Assembly (NCBI GenBank): GCA_902622595.1
Contig: CACNQM010000002.1
Coordinates: 62,001 to 126,000, forward strand
Source: an uncultured Bacteroidota bacterium
Lineage (GTDB): Bacteria > Bacteroidota > Bacteroidia > Flavobacteriales > Flavobacteriaceae
Direction of reading: 5' to 3'
Length of the DNA stretch: 64,000 bases
A program made the translations under genes and the position numbers. This document shows positions 35,928 through 44,129 of the stretch, one piece after another. The notes beneath the pieces were generated by a model that was given only the letters and a program-made list of their open reading frames with translations, was not told where the DNA came from and ran no database searches. How positions within the stretch are numbered: position 1 is the stretch's first letter; each line of letters starts with the position of its first letter.

Positions 35928-36668
35928 TTAGATTTTAGCTTTATAAAACTCTCGATTCATCCTGGCTATATTTTTTATTGAAATTCCTTTTGGACATTCT
36001 ACCTCACAAGCACCAGTATTTGTACAGTTTCCAAAACCTTCATCATCCATTTGTTTAACCATATTTAGTACTCTTTCTTTTGCCTCAACCTTTCCTTGTG
36101 GTAGATAAGAAAATTGTGAAACTTTTGCAGATACATAAAGCATAGCAGATGCATTTTTACATGTTGCAACACATGCACCACACCCAATACAGGTAGCAGC
36201 ATCAAAAGCACTATCTGCATCCTCTTTTCTAATTGGTGTAGTATTTGCATCTTGTGTATTTCCAGAAGTATTAATACTTATATAGCCCCCTGAATGTTGA
36301 ATCCTATCAAAGGCTGACCTATCAACAACTAAATCTTTAATAATAGGAAAAGATTTAGCTCTAAAAGGCTCAATAACTATTGAATCCCCGTCTTTAAATT
36401 TTCTCATATGAAGTTGACATGTAGTGATTCCCTTATCAGGACCATGAGCTCTTCCATTTATAAATAGTGAACAGCTACCACAAATACCTTCTCTACAATC
36501 ATGATCAAATGAAATTGGATCAATATTTTCATAGATTAACTTTTGATTAAGCACATCCATCATTTCAAGAAAAGACATATCTGGGGTAATATCATCTATA
36601 ACATAATTTTCAAAGCCACCTTTTGACTCCGAATTCTTTTGTCTCCAAATTTTGAGGTTAAGTTTCAT
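35928..36668 (-). CDS. sdhB: Succinate dehydrogenase/fumarate reductase iron-sulfur subunit
   Basis: 246 residues. [2Fe-2S] ligands C58, C63, C66 and C84; [4Fe-4S] motif [11 protein letters not shown] (C160-C170) and a last cluster motif with C215, C221 and C225. It is the non-classical form found with a single cytochrome b subunit (SdhC) in Bacteroidota. Uniquely here, a peptidase gene separates it from sdhA, with one base before its start. Confidence 0.96.
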
Positions 36669-36669
36669 A

Positions 36670-38196
36670 TCAATATTTTGCTGGGGTATTATTGGTTATA
36701 GTTTTAAGAATAAAATCTCTGAGATCTTGATTTGATTTTTGTAAGTCTCCTCGCCTTAAATACATCATATGACCACTTTCATATCCTTTAAATGTAAATC
36801 TATCTTTTAATTTACCTGAAGGGTCAACTTGTTGCATTGTGTACTTGGCAGCAGAAAAAGTTGTTGCTCCATCATAATATCCAGACTGAATCAACACATT
36901 CAGGAACGGATTTTCAGCTAGAGCTTCTCTAAATTTACTCCTAATGTTAATGTTTTCTCTATCCCATGGACGAACTGATAGTTCTCCTCTAGCCCAAGTA
37001 TTATACTTGACATCTGTATTGAAATTCAACACATTCTTCATATAAGAATTGATTGCTGGAGTAAAAGCGTGATCCCATGCTGCAAGCTCTGGTGCATACT
37101 CTATTGAGTCACCTGAATCTCTAGAATCAATACCCTTATATCTTGAATCTAATCTTCCAATTGTATATCCTTCTTCTCTTAGTAGATCTTTCCAAAAAAA
37201 GGATGGTGAAATCCTTAAATTATTATCAATTATATCTTCGTAACTAATTCCAGTCAAATCTTTAATTTTTTGGGCTACTTCTCTTTTTGTGTTCATATCA
37301 ACATATCCTCCTTTTGCAATAGCAGGAAGTAATTTGTTATAAGCGAAATCCTCTGAGATTTGTATGAGGTTTTCTAAGTCCATTGACTGATACTCCACTT
37401 TTAATTTCTTGTGATACCATGCAGTTGCACTTAAGTAAGGAAAGTCACCAATTAATTGTATTACATCTCCATCTGAATAAAAATATTCATAATCAGCAGG
37501 TGATACTAAAATAACCCCATTAAGATATAACCAATGATTTTGTTGTAATTCATGAGCAAGACCCATCACTCTAACACCTCCATAACTTTCTCCAATTAGA
37601 TATTTTGGAGAACTCCACCTATTCTGTCTAGAAACAAAAGTGCTTATCCATTCTGCTAGATAATTTATATCCTGGTTAACCCCAAAGAACATTTCACTCT
37701 CTTTTTCTTCACAATCATCTTCCTCACATAATTTTCCAAGGATTCTGGAATAACCTACATTTACTGGATTTACAAACACAATATCCGCAACATCAAGGAT
37801 TGAATACGGATTAGTCTTAAATCCATATGGCTGAATAGGATAACCTTCATCATCAACTATTAGATTGTAAGGACCGGTATACCCCATATGCATCCAAACT
37901 GATGCAGCTCCTGGACCACCGTTAAACGAAAAAACTAGAGGCCTGTTTGAATCATCTTCTATATCTTTCCTTTTATATAATGTATAATGGAGAGTTGCAT
38001 AGATTGTGTCACCTGATGAATTCCATATAGGCTGAGTACCGACTTGAGCTTCATAGTTAACTTTTTTCCCTAGAATAATTGATGAATGGTCGGAAATTAC
38101 CTTAATATCCGGAGATATTTGTCTACTAGAAGTATAGCTTTGAGCAGAAATATTCATAATACTGAAAAAAAGGAATATGGTTAGAAGGTATCTCAT
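36670..38196 (-). CDS. S10-family serine carboxypeptidase-like protein
   Basis: 508 residues with a signal peptide (about 1-19). Family motifs: [11 protein letters not shown] for the oxyanion hole (about 91-101), GESYGGVR with nucleophile Ser204, [10 protein letters not shown] with the catalytic Asp and [10 protein letters not shown] with the catalytic His near the C-terminus. The protein is predicted to be exported and to remove C-terminal residues from peptides. It is placed between sdhA and sdhB with gaps of two and one bases, so it is almost certainly cotranscribed with them. Confidence 0.92.
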
Positions 38197-38198
38197 AT

Positions 38199-40538
38199 TT
38201 ATTTATAGGATCTAGTTTTGACTTCTATTTCTTCGTATTTAAGATCTTCCTTATGTAACTTTGCATCTGATGGCTCTCCCATATATTCCCAGGCTGAAAC
38301 AAATTTAAAATTCTTGTCATCTCTAATTGCTTCTCCATCTTTAGTTTGGTATTCTTCTCTAAAATGTCCTCCGCATGATTCATTTCTTTCTAATGCATCT
38401 TTTGCAAATAACTCACCTAGCTCAAGAAAATCTGCAACTCTTACTGCTTTTGCAAGTTCCTCATTATATTCAGTAATCTTTCCAGTTACATTCACGTTTT
38501 TATAAAAGTCATTTCTTAATTTTTTTATTTCATTAATTGCATCAACTAAATCATTTTGATTCCTTGACATACCACATTTATTCCACATTATCTTTCCTAA
38601 TTTTTTATGATAATGATCAACAGAATTTTTCCCTTTATTCGATATTAGCTTTTTAAGCAAGTCTTGAACGCCATTTTCACTGTCCTCAAATTCTTTAGTG
38701 TCAGTACTAATTTTACCTGTACTTATATCATCAGACAAATAGTCACCTATTGTATATGGTAGAACAAAATATCCATCAGCCAATCCTTGCATTAGTGCAG
38801 AAGCTCCTAACCTATTTGCTCCATGATCAGAAAAGTTTGCCTCACCTATTGCAAAACAACCTGGAATTGTAGTCATTAAGTTGTAGTCAACCCAGACACC
38901 ACCCATTGTGTAATGAACAGCTGGATAAATTTTCATTGGCATGACATATGGATCTTCATCAACTATTTTCTCATACATCTGGAACAAGTTCCCATATTTT
39001 TGTTTTATAATTTCTCTACCTAATTTTTTAACTATCTCAATATTATTCTCATCTTGACCATTTAATAATGCTTTCTCCTTCCCGTATCTTATAATTGCAT
39101 GAGAGAAATCTAAGTATACTGCCTCTCCCGTTTTATTAACTCCGAAGCCATTATCACATCTTTCCTTAGCAGCTCTTGAGGCAATATCTCTTGGAACAAG
39201 ATTCCCAAATGCAGGATATCGTCTTTCTAAATAATAATCTCTGTCTTCTTCCTTTATATCAAGGGGTGATAATTTACCCTCTTGGACTAATTTGGCATCT
39301 GTTAAATCTTTTGGCACCCATATTCTTCCATCATTTCTTAATGATTCAGACATTAGAGTTAATTTTGACTGATAATCACCTGATACTGGAATACAGGTTG
39401 GATGAATTTGAGTAAAACATGGATTTGCAAAGTAGGCCCCTTTTTTATGAATCTTCCATGAGGCAGTCACATTACTCCCCATTGCATTTGTAGATAAATA
39501 AAAAATATTTCCATATCCACCAGAAGCAATTACGACTGCATGTGCTGAGAATCTCTCAAGTTTACCAGTAATATGATTTCTTGCAATAATTCCTCTTGCT
39601 TTCCCATCAACTTTAACAAGATCCATCATCTCATGTCTACTGAACATCTCAATTTTACCTCTAGCAATTTGTCTGTTCATAGCAGAGTATGCACCCAAAA
39701 GTAGTTGTTGACCAGTTTGACCTTTAGCATAAAATGTTCTTGAAACTTGAACTCCTCCAAATGATCGATTGTCAAGAAGACCTCCATAATCTCTTGCAAA
39801 AGGCACACCTTGAGCAACACATTGATCAATTATATTCCCAGATACTTCAGCTAGCCTATAGACATTTGCCTCCCTTGACCTATAATCTCCTCCTTTGATT
39901 GTATCATAAAAAAGTCTATAATCTGAATCTCCATCACCTTGATAATTTTTGGAGGCATTTATTCCTCCTTGAGCAGCAATTGAGTGAGCTCTTCTTGGAG
40001 AATCCTGAAAACAAAAAGCTTTAACATTATAGCCTAGCTCAGCAAGAGTTGCTGAGGCAGATGCACCGGCTAAACCTGTACCAACAACTATAATATCAAT
40101 ATTTCTCTTATTAGAAGGGCTAACAAGGTTTATACTTCCTTTATGAGATTCCCATTTTGAGGAAAGAGGGCCATTAGGGATTTTAGAATTTATTGTATGT
40201 TTTGTTTTAATTGTTTTTATCTCAGTATCTAGTAGCTTAATAATCTCAAATTCTGATTTTAATTTATCAGGAGTTAGAGGTTCTTTTTTATTTTCAAAAG
40301 ATGAAATAATAGATTCAAGTTGAGACTTGATTGTCTTTATCTTTCTGTTTTTTATACCAGACTCTTTGTCAGTTGACTTAACTTTCTTTTTGTCAAAGCA
40401 CCAATTTTTGTTATTTACCTTAAGGCTACAAAAAAATTTAGCCCTTTTATTATTATTGTGATAGATGAAAAAAGGTGAAACATGGTCATCTTTACCATCT
40501 TTATACTTAATGTGCTTTTCTGTAAGATATAATCCCAT
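38199..40538 (-). CDS. sdhA: Succinate dehydrogenase flavoprotein subunit with N-terminal recombinase arm-like extension
   Basis: 779 residues. From about residue 117 (SKIPNGPL) it is a standard Bacteroidota SdhA of about 663 residues: [10 protein letters not shown] for [15 protein letters not shown] with the covalent FAD His185, the HPTCIPVSG substrate-site region and [11 protein letters not shown]. Residues 1-115 are not part of any SdhA I know and look like an arm-type DNA-binding domain (separate entry). No Met is present at the normal start: residue 116, where Met is expected, is encoded ATA. Translation from the upstream ATG at 40538 would make a fusion. It oxidises succinate on the cytoplasmic face of the membrane. 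Confidence 0.95.
40194..40538 (-). other. Region encoding arm-type DNA-binding-like domain fused to SdhA
   Basis: These 115 codons stay open in very AT-rich DNA. The encoded pattern matches arm domains of Bacteroidota tyrosine recombinases: basic strand segments ([30 protein letters not shown]), a NNKNW-x-x-KKKVK turn where recombinases have a 'W-D-KKK-RVK' motif, then a long amphipathic helix ([18 protein letters not shown]) and [11 protein letters not shown], like the usual 'FTxEELK'. The match is from memory of family consensus, not a search. It starts 55 bases after the sdhC stop. Confidence 0.65.
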
Positions 40539-40567
40539 AATACAAATATATAACTTTTAATTTAGTT

Positions 40568-40586
40568 GTACCCCATTTTGTGCCCC
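40568..40586 (-). repeat. Tandem GGGGYACA repeats between sdhC and sdhA
   Basis: Read on the minus strand this is GGGGCACAAAATGGGGTAC: two GGGGYACA units 12 bases apart, GC-rich in an AT-rich gap of 54 bases. They lie 30 bases upstream of the sdhA ATG. Similar units lie before the gene at 57379. They may be former arm-binding sites of the recombinase whose 5' end seems to be fused to sdhA (inference). Confidence 0.5.
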
Positions 40587-40592
40587 AATATA

Positions 40593-41258
40593 TTAATGCA
40601 TTATATTATGAAAAACTGCAATAAAAATAAACCCAAAAGGAATAAGAATAGAAAAAATAAATGTAAGTGATTTAATAGGTTTGTAATATTTAGAATCAAC
40701 ACCAATAGTTTTAAATGATGAACTGAAACCATGTAAGAGATGAAGAGCTAAAAAGATAAATGAAACAGAATAAATTGAGGTCCTAATTGGACTTTCAAAT
40801 TTATGAATTAACTCTTCATAGTATCTGTTTGGATCTTCCGGTCTGAACTCAATATATTTATAATTCATCTCTGGAACCCAAAAATCATAAAAATGAAGAA
40901 TTAAAAATAAGAGTACTACACCACCAGTGAAAATCATATTTCTGGAGATCCAAGGAGCATTATCGCCACCAGCATATCTTGAATAATTAGCACCTCTAGA
41001 TTTTCTATTTATAATTTCTAAATAAAAGCCCATTACAAAATGAAAAATTACACCAAATATTAATATTGGTTGTAATATAAATTGGACAACAGGGTTATTT
41101 CCCATAAAATGGGATAAGAAATTAAATATTTCTTCACTAAAAACTGAAGTAATATTGATTAGAAAATGCTGAGTTAAAAAAACTACAAGAAAGATACCTG
41201 ATAAAGCCATTAATAGCTTCTTTCCAATAGAAGATTTAAATATAGAAATCAAAGACAT
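40593..41258 (-). CDS. sdhC: Succinate dehydrogenase cytochrome b subunit
   Basis: 221 residues, five membrane helices. The pattern SSIGKKLLMALSGIFLVVFLTQHFLINI, with heme-ligand His in the early helices and FHFVMGFYLEI and LHLLHGFSSSF later, is typical of the single-chain cytochrome b558 of SdhABC. It is first in the sdhC-sdhA-peptidase-sdhB unit. Confidence 0.95.
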   Translation of the reverse strand: MSLISIFKSSIGKKLLMALSGIFLVVFLTQHFLINITSVFSEEIFNFLSHFMGNNPVVQFILQPILIFGVIFHFVMGFYLEIINRKSRGANYSRYAGGDNAPWISRNMIFTGGVVLLFLILHFYDFWVPEMNYKYIEFRPEDPNRYYEELIHKFESPIRTSIYSVSFIFLALHLLHGFSSSFKTIGVDSKYYKPIKSLTFIFSILIPFGFIFIAVFHNIMH

Positions 41259-41303: not shown

Positions 41304-44129
41304 CTATTTTATTTTAAATTGATTTTCTATTGCAGTATTATCTGTTTTTATAGAGATGGAATAAACACCTTTCTGCAAATAATGTTCTCCATTTTGAGAT
41401 TTATCGATTAAATCTATATTTGAATCATCTAATATTGTCAGGTCATAATCAATAAAATTATATCCCTTGTCAAGTGAAATTGATTTTGAAAATAAAACGT
41501 CTTTATTATTGTTAATAATCTCAAAAGACACATTATGACTTGATTTAGAGAAAATTGAAAACTTCAGACTTGGTGTAAAATAATTTTTATCTGTACTCCT
41601 CTTTGTGCCCCATCTCTCAGAAAACCTAACATCCTTAATATCAAAAATCTTAATTTCAGCTTTCTGATTAGCAATATCATGATTCTGAATTATAGCTATA
41701 TCAGCTAGATATATTGATCTACCGTGTGTTCCAACTAATAGGTGCTGTTCCTCTTCTTGTATAACTAAATCATGGACTGCTGCAGATGTAAGACCTTTAT
41801 TAAACGGCTCCCAAGTTTTTCCTTGATCTAATGAAATATATACCCCATGATCATTTCCAACGTATAGAATATCTTCGTTAACGTTATCTTCTATCACAAC
41901 ATTGATAGGTGAGTCTGGTAGGTTAGAACTAATTGATTCCCAAGTCTTACCATAATTCTTACTTTGAAAAAGATAAGGAGAAAAGTTATCCCATCTATAT
42001 CCATCAAGAGATAAATAAACAACTTTTTCATCATGATTTGAAGCATAAACATTACTTACCCAAAGTTCCTTTGGAAGATTTCCTGAGATATTCTTCCATG
42101 TTTTCCCACTATTTTTTGATACATACACATGGCCATCGTCACTTCCAGTATAAAGGACTCCCTCTTTAACTGGTGATTCAGAAATCGTTGTAATTGTTCC
42201 ATAGGGGACATTCCCTTTTTTCCCACCATTAGTTAAGTCTTCAGAAATAGTCTGCCAGTCATCTCCTTGATTAGTGGATTTATGTAAAAAATTTGATCCA
42301 AGGTATAGAACATCCTGATTATGAGGTGAGAGAAGAATAGGTGTTTGCCAATTAAATCTAAAAGGAGAATTACCAAGTTCATGAATTGGTTTAATAGATT
42401 TTCTCCTCCCAGTGTCTAAATCTAAACGAGCATAAAAACCAAACTGAGATCCAGTAAAGACAATATTTGGGTTTCTATTATCAATTTGAACTTCCATTCC
42501 ATCTCCTCCAAGAATCCCCTTCCATGGGTATTGACCTGTCATATTCCATCTTTTATTCTCTAATGAATTATGTGGTCCCATCCAAACTCCATTATCTTGG
42601 AGTCCACCATAAACATTATATGGTGTTTGATTATCTACATTAATAGCATAAAACTGGCCAACTTCAGTAGAGTTATTTTTTATCCAGTTTTTTCCATCAT
42701 CGTAAGTTATATTAACCCCTCCATCATTTCCATTTATCAGGTGCCCAGGTTTATCAGGATTTATCCATAAGTCATGATGATCAGCATGAACATTTTCCTT
42801 GCCTATCCTATAAAAAGTTTTTCCGCCATCATCTGATGTCAAAATTGGAACGCCATAAGTATATATCTTTTGACTATTACTTGGATCTACATGGATTTTT
42901 CCAAAATAATATCCATATGTATTATATACTCCATCTAAAAATGAGTTATGTGTTTTAGCCCAAGTTTTTCCACCATTTTCACTTTTATATACCTCTGCTC
43001 CAATTATTGGAGTATCGAATAACTCTGAGTTTGCATTTACTAAATATTTGTATAAATCATCAGGTTGAAGTTTACCATCATTCATATCTTTTTTAATTGC
43101 CTCAGCTTTGTACTTAGATGGAAACCTGTTAGATCTTAAAAAAGCTTTAAGATCACTAACACTTAATTTATTAAAATTTTCAAGTGACATTCCTATAAAT
43201 GACTCTTTTGTTAAACCTTGATCTAATTTTTTTTCAGTGGTTTCTCTAAAGTTCTGATTATCGACAACTGCATAAACTATGTCTTTATCAAAAACTGCTA
43301 TTCCAATCCTTCCTACTCCAGCTCCTGTTGGGAAGCCAGATTCGTCATTAGACATTAAGCTCCAATTAGCTCCTCCATCAATACTTTTATATATTCCTGA
43401 ACCATGCCCATCCTCGTCAAAGTTCCAAGACTTTCTATCTTTTTCCCAAGATGTTGCATACATTATGTTAAAATCTCCTGGTGTTTCAGACATATCGATA
43501 ATTCCACTAACATCATTTATATATAATTTCCTATTCCAATTTTTTCCACCATCTTTTGTTACATATACACCTCTATTTTCATTCTTTGAGTATAAGTGTC
43601 CAGTAACCCCAATTACCAAATGATTAGAATTTTCGGGATTTATTAGAATTTTTCCAATATGATGACTATCATGCAAACCAACATTTTTCCAGTTTGAGCC
43701 ATCAGCATTTGTCTTTAAGATTCCAATCCCAGAGTATGAAGATCTTGAAGAATTATTTTCTCCTGTTCCAACCCATAATATACCATTATTCCAATCCATT
43801 GCTATTTCACCAATATTTTGAGTTGGCCAATCATCAGATATAGAATTAAATGATGTTCCATTATTATCTGTGTACCAAACTCCCCCAGAAGCATATGCAA
43901 CATAGAATTTTGTTGGATCTTCAGGATTGACCTCGAGTGCAACAACTCTTCCACTCATTATTGTAGGACCTATATTTTTAAATTCAATGTTTTTAACCCT
44001 AGATGATTTTACTAAGATCTCTTTATTCTCATATGCTTCAATAATACTTCCAGCATCCGTTGGATTTGGTTGAGAAAACACTAAAAAAGAGCTAATTAAA
44101 CTTAGTGAAATTGATAAAAGCTGTCTCAT
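41304..44129 (-). CDS. Exported VPS10/sortilin-like Asp-box beta-propeller protein
   Basis: 941 residues with a signal peptide (about 1-19). At least eight Asp-box motifs of the S-x-D-x-G-x-T-W type are visible, for example SENGGKTWAKT, SDDGGKTFYRI, SKNSGKTWKNI, SKNYGKTWESI and SLDQGKTWEPF, giving a probable double propeller as in sortilin/BNR proteins. A beta-rich C-terminal domain (about 830-941) follows. Such proteins are common in marine Flavobacteriia and their substrates are unknown. It is convergently spaced from sdhC by 45 bases on the same strand. Confidence 0.88.
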   Translation of the reverse strand: MRQLLSISLSLISSFLVFSQPNPTDAGSIIEAYENKEILVKSSRVKNIEFKNIGPTIMSGRVVALEVNPEDPTKFYVAYASGGVWYTDNNGTSFNSISDDWPTQNIGEIAMDWNNGILWVGTGENNSSRSSYSGIGILKTNADGSNWKNVGLHDSHHIGKILINPENSNHLVIGVTGHLYSKNENRGVYVTKDGGKNWNRKLYINDVSGIIDMSETPGDFNIMYATSWEKDRKSWNFDEDGHGSGIYKSIDGGANWSLMSNDESGFPTGAGVGRIGIAVFDKDIVYAVVDNQNFRETTEKKLDQGLTKESFIGMSLENFNKLSVSDLKAFLRSNRFPSKYKAEAIKKDMNDGKLQPDDLYKYLVNANSELFDTPIIGAEVYKSENGGKTWAKTHNSFLDGVYNTYGYYFGKIHVDPSNSQKIYTYGVPILTSDDGGKTFYRIGKENVHADHHDLWINPDKPGHLINGNDGGVNITYDDGKNWIKNNSTEVGQFYAINVDNQTPYNVYGGLQDNGVWMGPHNSLENKRWNMTGQYPWKGILGGDGMEVQIDNRNPNIVFTGSQFGFYARLDLDTGRRKSIKPIHELGNSPFRFNWQTPILLSPHNQDVLYLGSNFLHKSTNQGDDWQTISEDLTNGGKKGNVPYGTITTISESPVKEGVLYTGSDDGHVYVSKNSGKTWKNISGNLPKELWVSNVYASNHDEKVVYLSLDGYRWDNFSPYLFQSKNYGKTWESISSNLPDSPINVVIEDNVNEDILYVGNDHGVYISLDQGKTWEPFNKGLTSAAVHDLVIQEEEQHLLVGTHGRSIYLADIAIIQNHDIANQKAEIKIFDIKDVRFSERWGTKRSTDKNYFTPSLKFSIFSKSSHNVSFEIINNNKDVLFSKSISLDKGYNFIDYDLTILDDSNIDLIDKSQNGEHYLQKGVYSISIKTDNTAIENQFKIK

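Follow-up and report, generated by a model that had tools for sequence, protein, structure and literature searches.

SdhA has been fused, probably twice, to an integrase arm domain in marine Flavobacteriales: tandem repeats kept beside the sdh genes suggest an autoregulating enzyme

RESULTS AND DISCUSSION

An sdhA gene that begins with a recombinase arm domain

The window analyzed here, 64,000 nucleotides of contig CACNQM010000002.1 from an uncultured member of the Flavobacteriaceae (assembly GCA_902622595.1, a draft of 9 contigs that is 85.7% complete), carries sdh genes on the reverse strand. The open reading frames around sdhA are those that we take to be sdhC, sdhB, and a carboxypeptidase-like gene. 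The features of the locus are as follows.

35928..36668, reverse strand: presumed sdhB, downstream of sdhA and in the same direction (open reading frame)
36670-38196, reverse strand: presumed carboxypeptidase-like gene between sdhA and sdhB (open reading frame; named from an FNGGPG motif)
38199..40538, reverse strand: sdhA fusion gene with an ATG start, 779 aa, comprising an arm-type DNA-binding domain, a linker, and a complete SdhA flavoprotein
38202..40184, reverse strand: SdhA body, residues 119-779 (Pfam domains, pN/pS)
40185..40256, reverse strand: linker, residues 95-118, the quickest-evolving part (pN/pS 0.48)
40257..40538, reverse strand: Arm-DNA-bind_5 domain, residues 1-94 (Pfam match over residues 20-94)
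40543..40550, reverse strand: promoter-like box TATATTTG, separated by 4 nt from the ATG, in a layout common to all 12 fusion genomes
40567..40586, reverse strand: tandem GGGGCACAAAATGGGGTACA with a period of 12, a candidate operator or arm-type site (pattern and conservation)
40593..41258, reverse strand: presumed sdhC, the upstream neighbor of sdhA (open reading frame)

An earlier note on this DNA, made from the sequence alone, had described SdhA as carrying an in-frame N-terminal extension that it took to be a recombinase arm domain. The 779-aa open reading frame confirms the extension, and a profile search supports this identity: residues 1-116 alone match the Pfam family Arm-DNA-bind_5 (PF17293) with an E value of 4.4e-9 and 37.2 bits, over the cutoff of 22.6. 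The span of 38199-40595 given in that note needs correction, as the reading frame ends at 40538 and position 40595 already lies in sdhC. The remainder of the protein is a complete SdhA, with FAD_binding_2 (PF00890) and Succ_DH_flav_C (PF02910) matches far over their cutoffs; both flavoprotein domains and the sdhC-sdhA-sdhB neighborhood, with its presumed flanking genes, are present. Neither a core-binding (SAM-like) nor a catalytic recombinase domain appears among the Pfam matches of the protein even at an E value of 10; it is not a recombinase. A PutA protein can be set aside on the same kind of evidence, the PRODH, P5CDH, and ribbon-helix-helix domains being missing from the Pfam matches.

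The arm (residues 1-94) has a net charge of +12, and the SdhA body has one of +2. Its predicted structure has the order strand-strand-strand-helix-helix at low confidence (pLDDT 53). Neither this arm model nor that of the second fusion described below has a fold match in the PDB at an E value of 0.001, and sequence searches of the PDB with the arm domains gave no significant match. The fusion protein has a single match in the window genome, at its completeness of 85.7%. The spacing of sdhA and sdhB, measured in 16 genomes, is about 1.4 to 1.5 kb in 12 of them, 14 bp in three (G008, G012, and G009), and 115 bp in the remaining one, G002. Only in G000 and G006 was the FNGGPG motif seen.

All 11 fusion genes examined lack an ATG at residues 2-175; a GTG or TTG occurs between residues 60 and 146 in three of the 11. 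From the start to the Rossmann motif there are about 147 residues in these fusions and about 34 to 48 at other loci. The claim that an ATA stands where the Met of SdhA should be held in part: ATA is codon 116 (Ile116), and no ATG substitutes for it, but the NKLNSK of nonfused congeners aligns with HTINSK, and their Met, when the alignment is extended without a gap, falls opposite Lys113.

Distribution, selection, and history within the genus

We surveyed 40 genomes, the window genome and its relatives, of which 25 belong to the genus. The fusion protein has a match in 34 of the 40, that in G007 being only a distant paralogue. The search for the same fusion in related genomes that the earlier note had proposed was productive: 12 of the 25 genus genomes have it. 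Ten of these, including that of the window, hold all 779 residues on one contig, G013 holds residues 1-617 on a contig-cut copy, and in G006 residues 1-32 and 125-779 are split over two contigs. The same junction is present in nine other genomes, with 80 to 98% identity across the 779 residues, and in one cut contig. Five congeners are nonfused and have a short sdhA with its own ATG overlapping the sdhC stop; related strains with stops in the extension, which that note had named as a sign of error, were not seen. In the other eight genus genomes, sdhA is missing, represented by a paralogue alone, or interrupted by the end of a contig (G001 and G023). The SdhA body of the fusion is full length, with 62 to 85% identity to nonfused relatives.

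The extension is protein, and its arm is under purifying selection, as the check on selection proposed in the earlier note brought out. In 55 pairs, for which the ratios are rough because dS is saturated in many of them, the pooled pN/pS is 0.25 over residues 1-94 (0.13 for residues 1-47 and 0.39 for residues 48-94), 0.48 over the linker, and 0.10 over the SdhA body.

In a DNA tree of the SdhA body with outgroups, the five nonfused genes fall in two groups within the fused ones; a single clade of fused genes was rejected (p-AU 0.0015) and one of nonfused genes was weakly rejected (0.036), in a data set where four of 15 outgroup loci passed the motif filter, one of them identical to G029, and from which G006 and G023 were left out. 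Both groups are also split in a tree of the upstream gene (16 rows), and an SdhB tree (15 rows) places them on two sides with weak support (70/34). The simplest account of these trees is one gain and two losses, with recombination possible. The fusion would then be dispensable in the two groups from which it seems to have disappeared. Comparison of these loci indicates that the fusion is real and old.

A conserved tandem at the presumed promoter of the fused gene

Between sdhC and the fused ATG, all 12 fusion genomes carry the tandem GGGGYACAnnnnGGGGYACA. It is found in none of the 13 other genus genomes, five of which were seen to be nonfused and eight of which are without an intact sdhA locus, and a backward control of the pattern was never found in the 25. 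When seven diverged members of these 12 genomes are aligned, 13 of the 14 half-site columns are invariant, as against seven of 199 fourfold sites, and the flanks have 0 of 10 invariant columns on the 5' side and three of 17 on the 3' side. Although the site was found by its pattern, this conservation is not produced by the choice of rows, because no fusion genome is without it. In every one of the 12 fusion genomes, 17 to 18 bp separate the end of the tandem from a TAnnTTTG box, and 4 nt separate the end of this box from the ATG. We take TAnnTTTG to be the Bacteroidota -7 promoter consensus, and a leaderless start at this box is possible. At this spacing the tandem would cover the -33 region, a position that fits a repressor.

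In 11 of the 12 fusion genomes, the tandem between sdhC and sdhA is the sole such site in the draft genome; G021 has two more, the first of them 1 kb upstream and the second on a different contig. A near-copy at 41592-41611 (up to two mismatches allowed), present with one mismatch or, in G021, exactly in nine of the 12, was considered as a second site and rejected: it lies within conserved W-G codons at the C-terminal end of the upstream gene, four nonfused congeners read WGVKRS, WGVQRS, or WGAQRS at that position, and coincidence is likely. The third G021 tandem (L159:5140-5158) lies between a 187-aa open reading frame with no convincing Pfam match and an aminotransferase-like gene. By eye, this frame resembles a 186-aa frame upstream of sdhC in L055, one of the loci of the second fusion. 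Family-wide, the pattern occurs in 12 of 199 genomes, two of which are fusions, and the backward control occurs in seven. Seven of the 10 nonfusion matches are in coding sequence, and a single locus, L172, was kept.

Tandem repeats in front of arm-domain genes

At L172, GTACCCC occurs twice at a period of 12 and is followed by TATATTTG, with 4 nt between this box and the ATG. The 5' arrangement matches that of the fusion except that the repeats are inverted. Its product has Arm_5 and SAM_5 domains and no Phage_integrase match at an E value of 0.1. More generally, an exact 7-mer tandem with a period of 10 to 14 occurs in the 150 bp 5' of 14 of the 30 genes with the best PF17293 matches, and of 15 of 34 when four loci added by other routes are included (2.1 expected); the 30 loci chosen by domain include near relatives, so that not all are independent, and the expectation comes from mononucleotide shuffles. 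In viral contigs, the GGGGYACA tandem was found at 37 loci, seven of them no more than 600 bp 5' of a recombinase gene, where 1.1 would be expected, a count biased by the fact that four of the seven search seeds were taken from those neighbors. We therefore rely on the 7-mer count in genes chosen by domain.

Searches for a close donor recombinase, with arm profiles in viral contigs and with single arm sequences in phages, found none. A weak phage match to the arm is an annotated Bacteroides phage integrase (E value of 0.04), and recombinase matches within the order are likewise weak, at 22 to 27% identity. As a side observation, seven Flavobacteriales arm-domain genes (L386, L392, L395, L399, L405, L407, and L410) have group-specific 11- to 12-bp tandems just 5' of them, GTTGTACC and GTGACCTA being examples. 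Such tandems could allow arm-type sites to be read off on a large scale.

A second fusion with a different repeat

We call the fusion of the window type 1. Among the best 80 SdhA loci from named records, drawn from at least 592 relatives, two are of type 1 and three (L055, L061, and L073, the last contig cut) have a different extension, type 2, of which four more cases (G248, G092, G218, and G258) were found in 395 genomes of the order. Six type-2 arms share 24 invariant columns of 94. Against PF17293, L055 and L335 score 20.7 and 18.9 bits, both under the cutoff of 22.6, and L061 (at an E value of 1) and L334, L336, and L337 (at an E value of 0.1) have no match. Since it falls under the cutoff, we call this extension arm-like; its closest matches outside the fusions are the arms of three recombinases (L338-L340; E values of 3e-4 to 8e-4) with Arm_5, SAM_5, and Phage_integrase domains. 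The L055 arm is predicted to fold into three strands and a helix (pLDDT 85); the order of elements predicted for the two types, at low confidence for type 1, would fit the three-stranded sheet and helix of an arm domain.

The type-2 arm is patchy, being strong in three of 52 and one of 10 genomes of its two families, and an analysis of 35 of 44 rows (nine without the start motif were dropped) did not separate vertical loss from operon transfer. Profile comparison of the two types gave a weak match (probability 37, E value of 3.5e-4, 39 columns). The type-2 profile scores type 1 at 15.9 bits, no better than the recombinase arms L338 (18.7) and L340 (17.0), which makes it likelier that the two types arose by separate capture.

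Four type-2 loci have an sdhC-sdhA gap of 158 to 179 bp with exact copies of GTGTTACA/TGTAACAC, three each in L055, G248, and G092 and four in L061. This gap contains no GTGTTACA in any of 17 genomes that lack the type-2 arm. The gap measures 4 bp in G218 and 1 bp in G258 and is without GTGTTACA in both; the 400 bp upstream of sdhC instead has GTGTTA on one strand four and five times, respectively (0.21 and 0.10 expected), with pairs 33 to 34 bp apart. The 17 genomes that lack this arm supplied 18 upstream regions, which hold two GTGTTA in total (4.3 expected), never two in one region; the analysis upstream of sdhC leaves out G248, where sdhC is cut, covers only 138 bp for G146, and follows an SdhC search in which nine of 30 genomes gave no match. 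Arm and repeats thus co-occur, in the gap or upstream of sdhC, in all six type-2 fusions with a usable region. In a scan of eight whole genomes, spaced GTGTTA pairs did not outnumber their backward control (11 versus 12). Five of the 11 belong to the sdh loci of G218, G258, and G092, and that of G248 has no pair with this spacing; these pairs are notable only for their place at sdh. In a limited search of viral contigs, no recombinase was detected beside GTGTTACA pairs among the 80 loci listed, and the sites among these matches that could be judged mostly resemble coding repeats, so that the type-2 repeat is tied to arms through the fusions only.

A candidate autoregulator and the competing explanations

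The earlier note had offered two alternatives, namely, capture of an integrase 5' end that now supplies the start and promoter, or a DNA-binding flavoprotein comparable to PutA. Our observations favor the two together. Promoter-like box, repeats, and arm form one block between sdhC and sdhA, in keeping with capture. A DNA-binding role is a candidate in view of the purifying selection on the arm, a site present in 12 of 12 fusion and 0 of five nonfused genomes, and a second fusion with a repeat that differs in sequence but is similar in style. A DNA-binding-type domain on an enzyme and a conserved candidate site at that enzyme's own promoter, by which an autogenous enzyme-regulator would be recognized in sequence, are both found here.

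On the basis of these observations, we propose that sdhC and sdhA came to flank the captured 5' end of a tyrosine-recombinase gene, which brought arm-type repeats, a promoter, a start codon, and an arm-binding domain; the arm would have been fused in frame to SdhA and the remaining recombinase lost. Selection would then have retained the arm through its binding to the repeats beside the promoter of its own gene. The arm-bearing SdhA would regulate transcription of its own gene. Most likely it would act as a repressor when free in the cytoplasm, off its SdhC anchor: bound to its own tandem, it would lower transcription of sdhA and the downstream genes, and assembly into complex II would draw it off. 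We consider it likely that SdhA carries a domesticated integrase arm that still binds arm-type sites and makes the enzyme autoregulating and PutA-like. More speculative, and to us somewhat doubtful, is the extended reading that arm and sites were domesticated at least twice and that free SdhA binds its own promoter until assembly with SdhB and SdhC on the membrane removes it, the enzyme itself thereby serving the cell as a gauge of complex II assembly, and the operator having moved in two lineages to serve the whole sdhCAB operon.

If only the start and promoter were captured, the arm could be a tolerated passenger that binds nothing. In favor of this, the captured block includes a promoter-like box together with the sole ATG start, and evolution is faster in the linker and the later half of the arm than in SdhA. 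We nevertheless regard this as unlikely, given the pN/pS of 0.13 for residues 1-47, repeat half-sites far more conserved than their flanks, and the retention of the type-2 arm in G218 and G258, which have almost no sdhC-sdhA gap and carry the repeats upstream of sdhC. The repeats could also be operators of an unrelated regulator, with the arm in a structural or protein-contact role. Short direct repeats are bound by other regulators too, and the link of arm to repeat is drawn from sequence; yet two different arms pair with two different repeats, genomes lacking the arm showed no such repeat, and many arm-domain genes have tandem repeats of their own, which makes this explanation quite improbable. 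An assembly chimera or annotation artifact, which the draft state of the window genome might suggest, is scarcely credible given the recurrence of the junction described above and the presence of the fusion in AG-435-G19 (L031), from its name presumably a single-cell genome.

Comparison with known systems

Among the papers listed in the literature searched, with subscription papers mostly outside the search, we found no report of an SdhA with a DNA-binding or integrase domain, of arm-type sites with GGGGTAC, or of a comparable domesticated integrase domain. New here are the type-1 tandem site, the second fusion with its own repeat, and the tandem 7-mers 5' of arm-domain genes. If the proposal is true, a core respiratory enzyme of marine bacteria would act as a transcription factor on the gene that encodes it, by virtue of a phage-type part; this would be a clear and repeated case of a recombinase DNA-binding domain domesticated together with its sites, as well as a natural test of a membrane enzyme that reports its own assembly state. 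The candidate sites are short and defined and are suited to EMSA.

With ordinary Flavobacteriales SdhA, the fusion shares the full-length catalytic body and differs in its N-terminal extension. In recombinases, arm DNA sites are recognized by the arm-binding domain (PMC8138268). The fusion resembles the arm domains of tyrosine recombinases, e.g., those of the IntCTnDOT subgroup of Bacteroidetes (PMC8138268), in its PF17293 match, its 5' tandems, and the strands and helix predicted for it, at low confidence for type 1. The core-binding and catalytic domains are missing from the fusion, where SdhA takes their place. A functional parallel would be PutA, described in PMC5293562 as a trifunctional protein whose N-terminal DNA-binding domain makes it an autogenous repressor and which switches to a membrane-associated enzyme. 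Both are flavoenzymes with an N-terminal DNA-binding-type domain; in PutA, as described there, this is a ribbon-helix-helix, whereas the fusion, known from sequence, has a recombinase arm domain and tandem candidate sites on a subunit of complex II.
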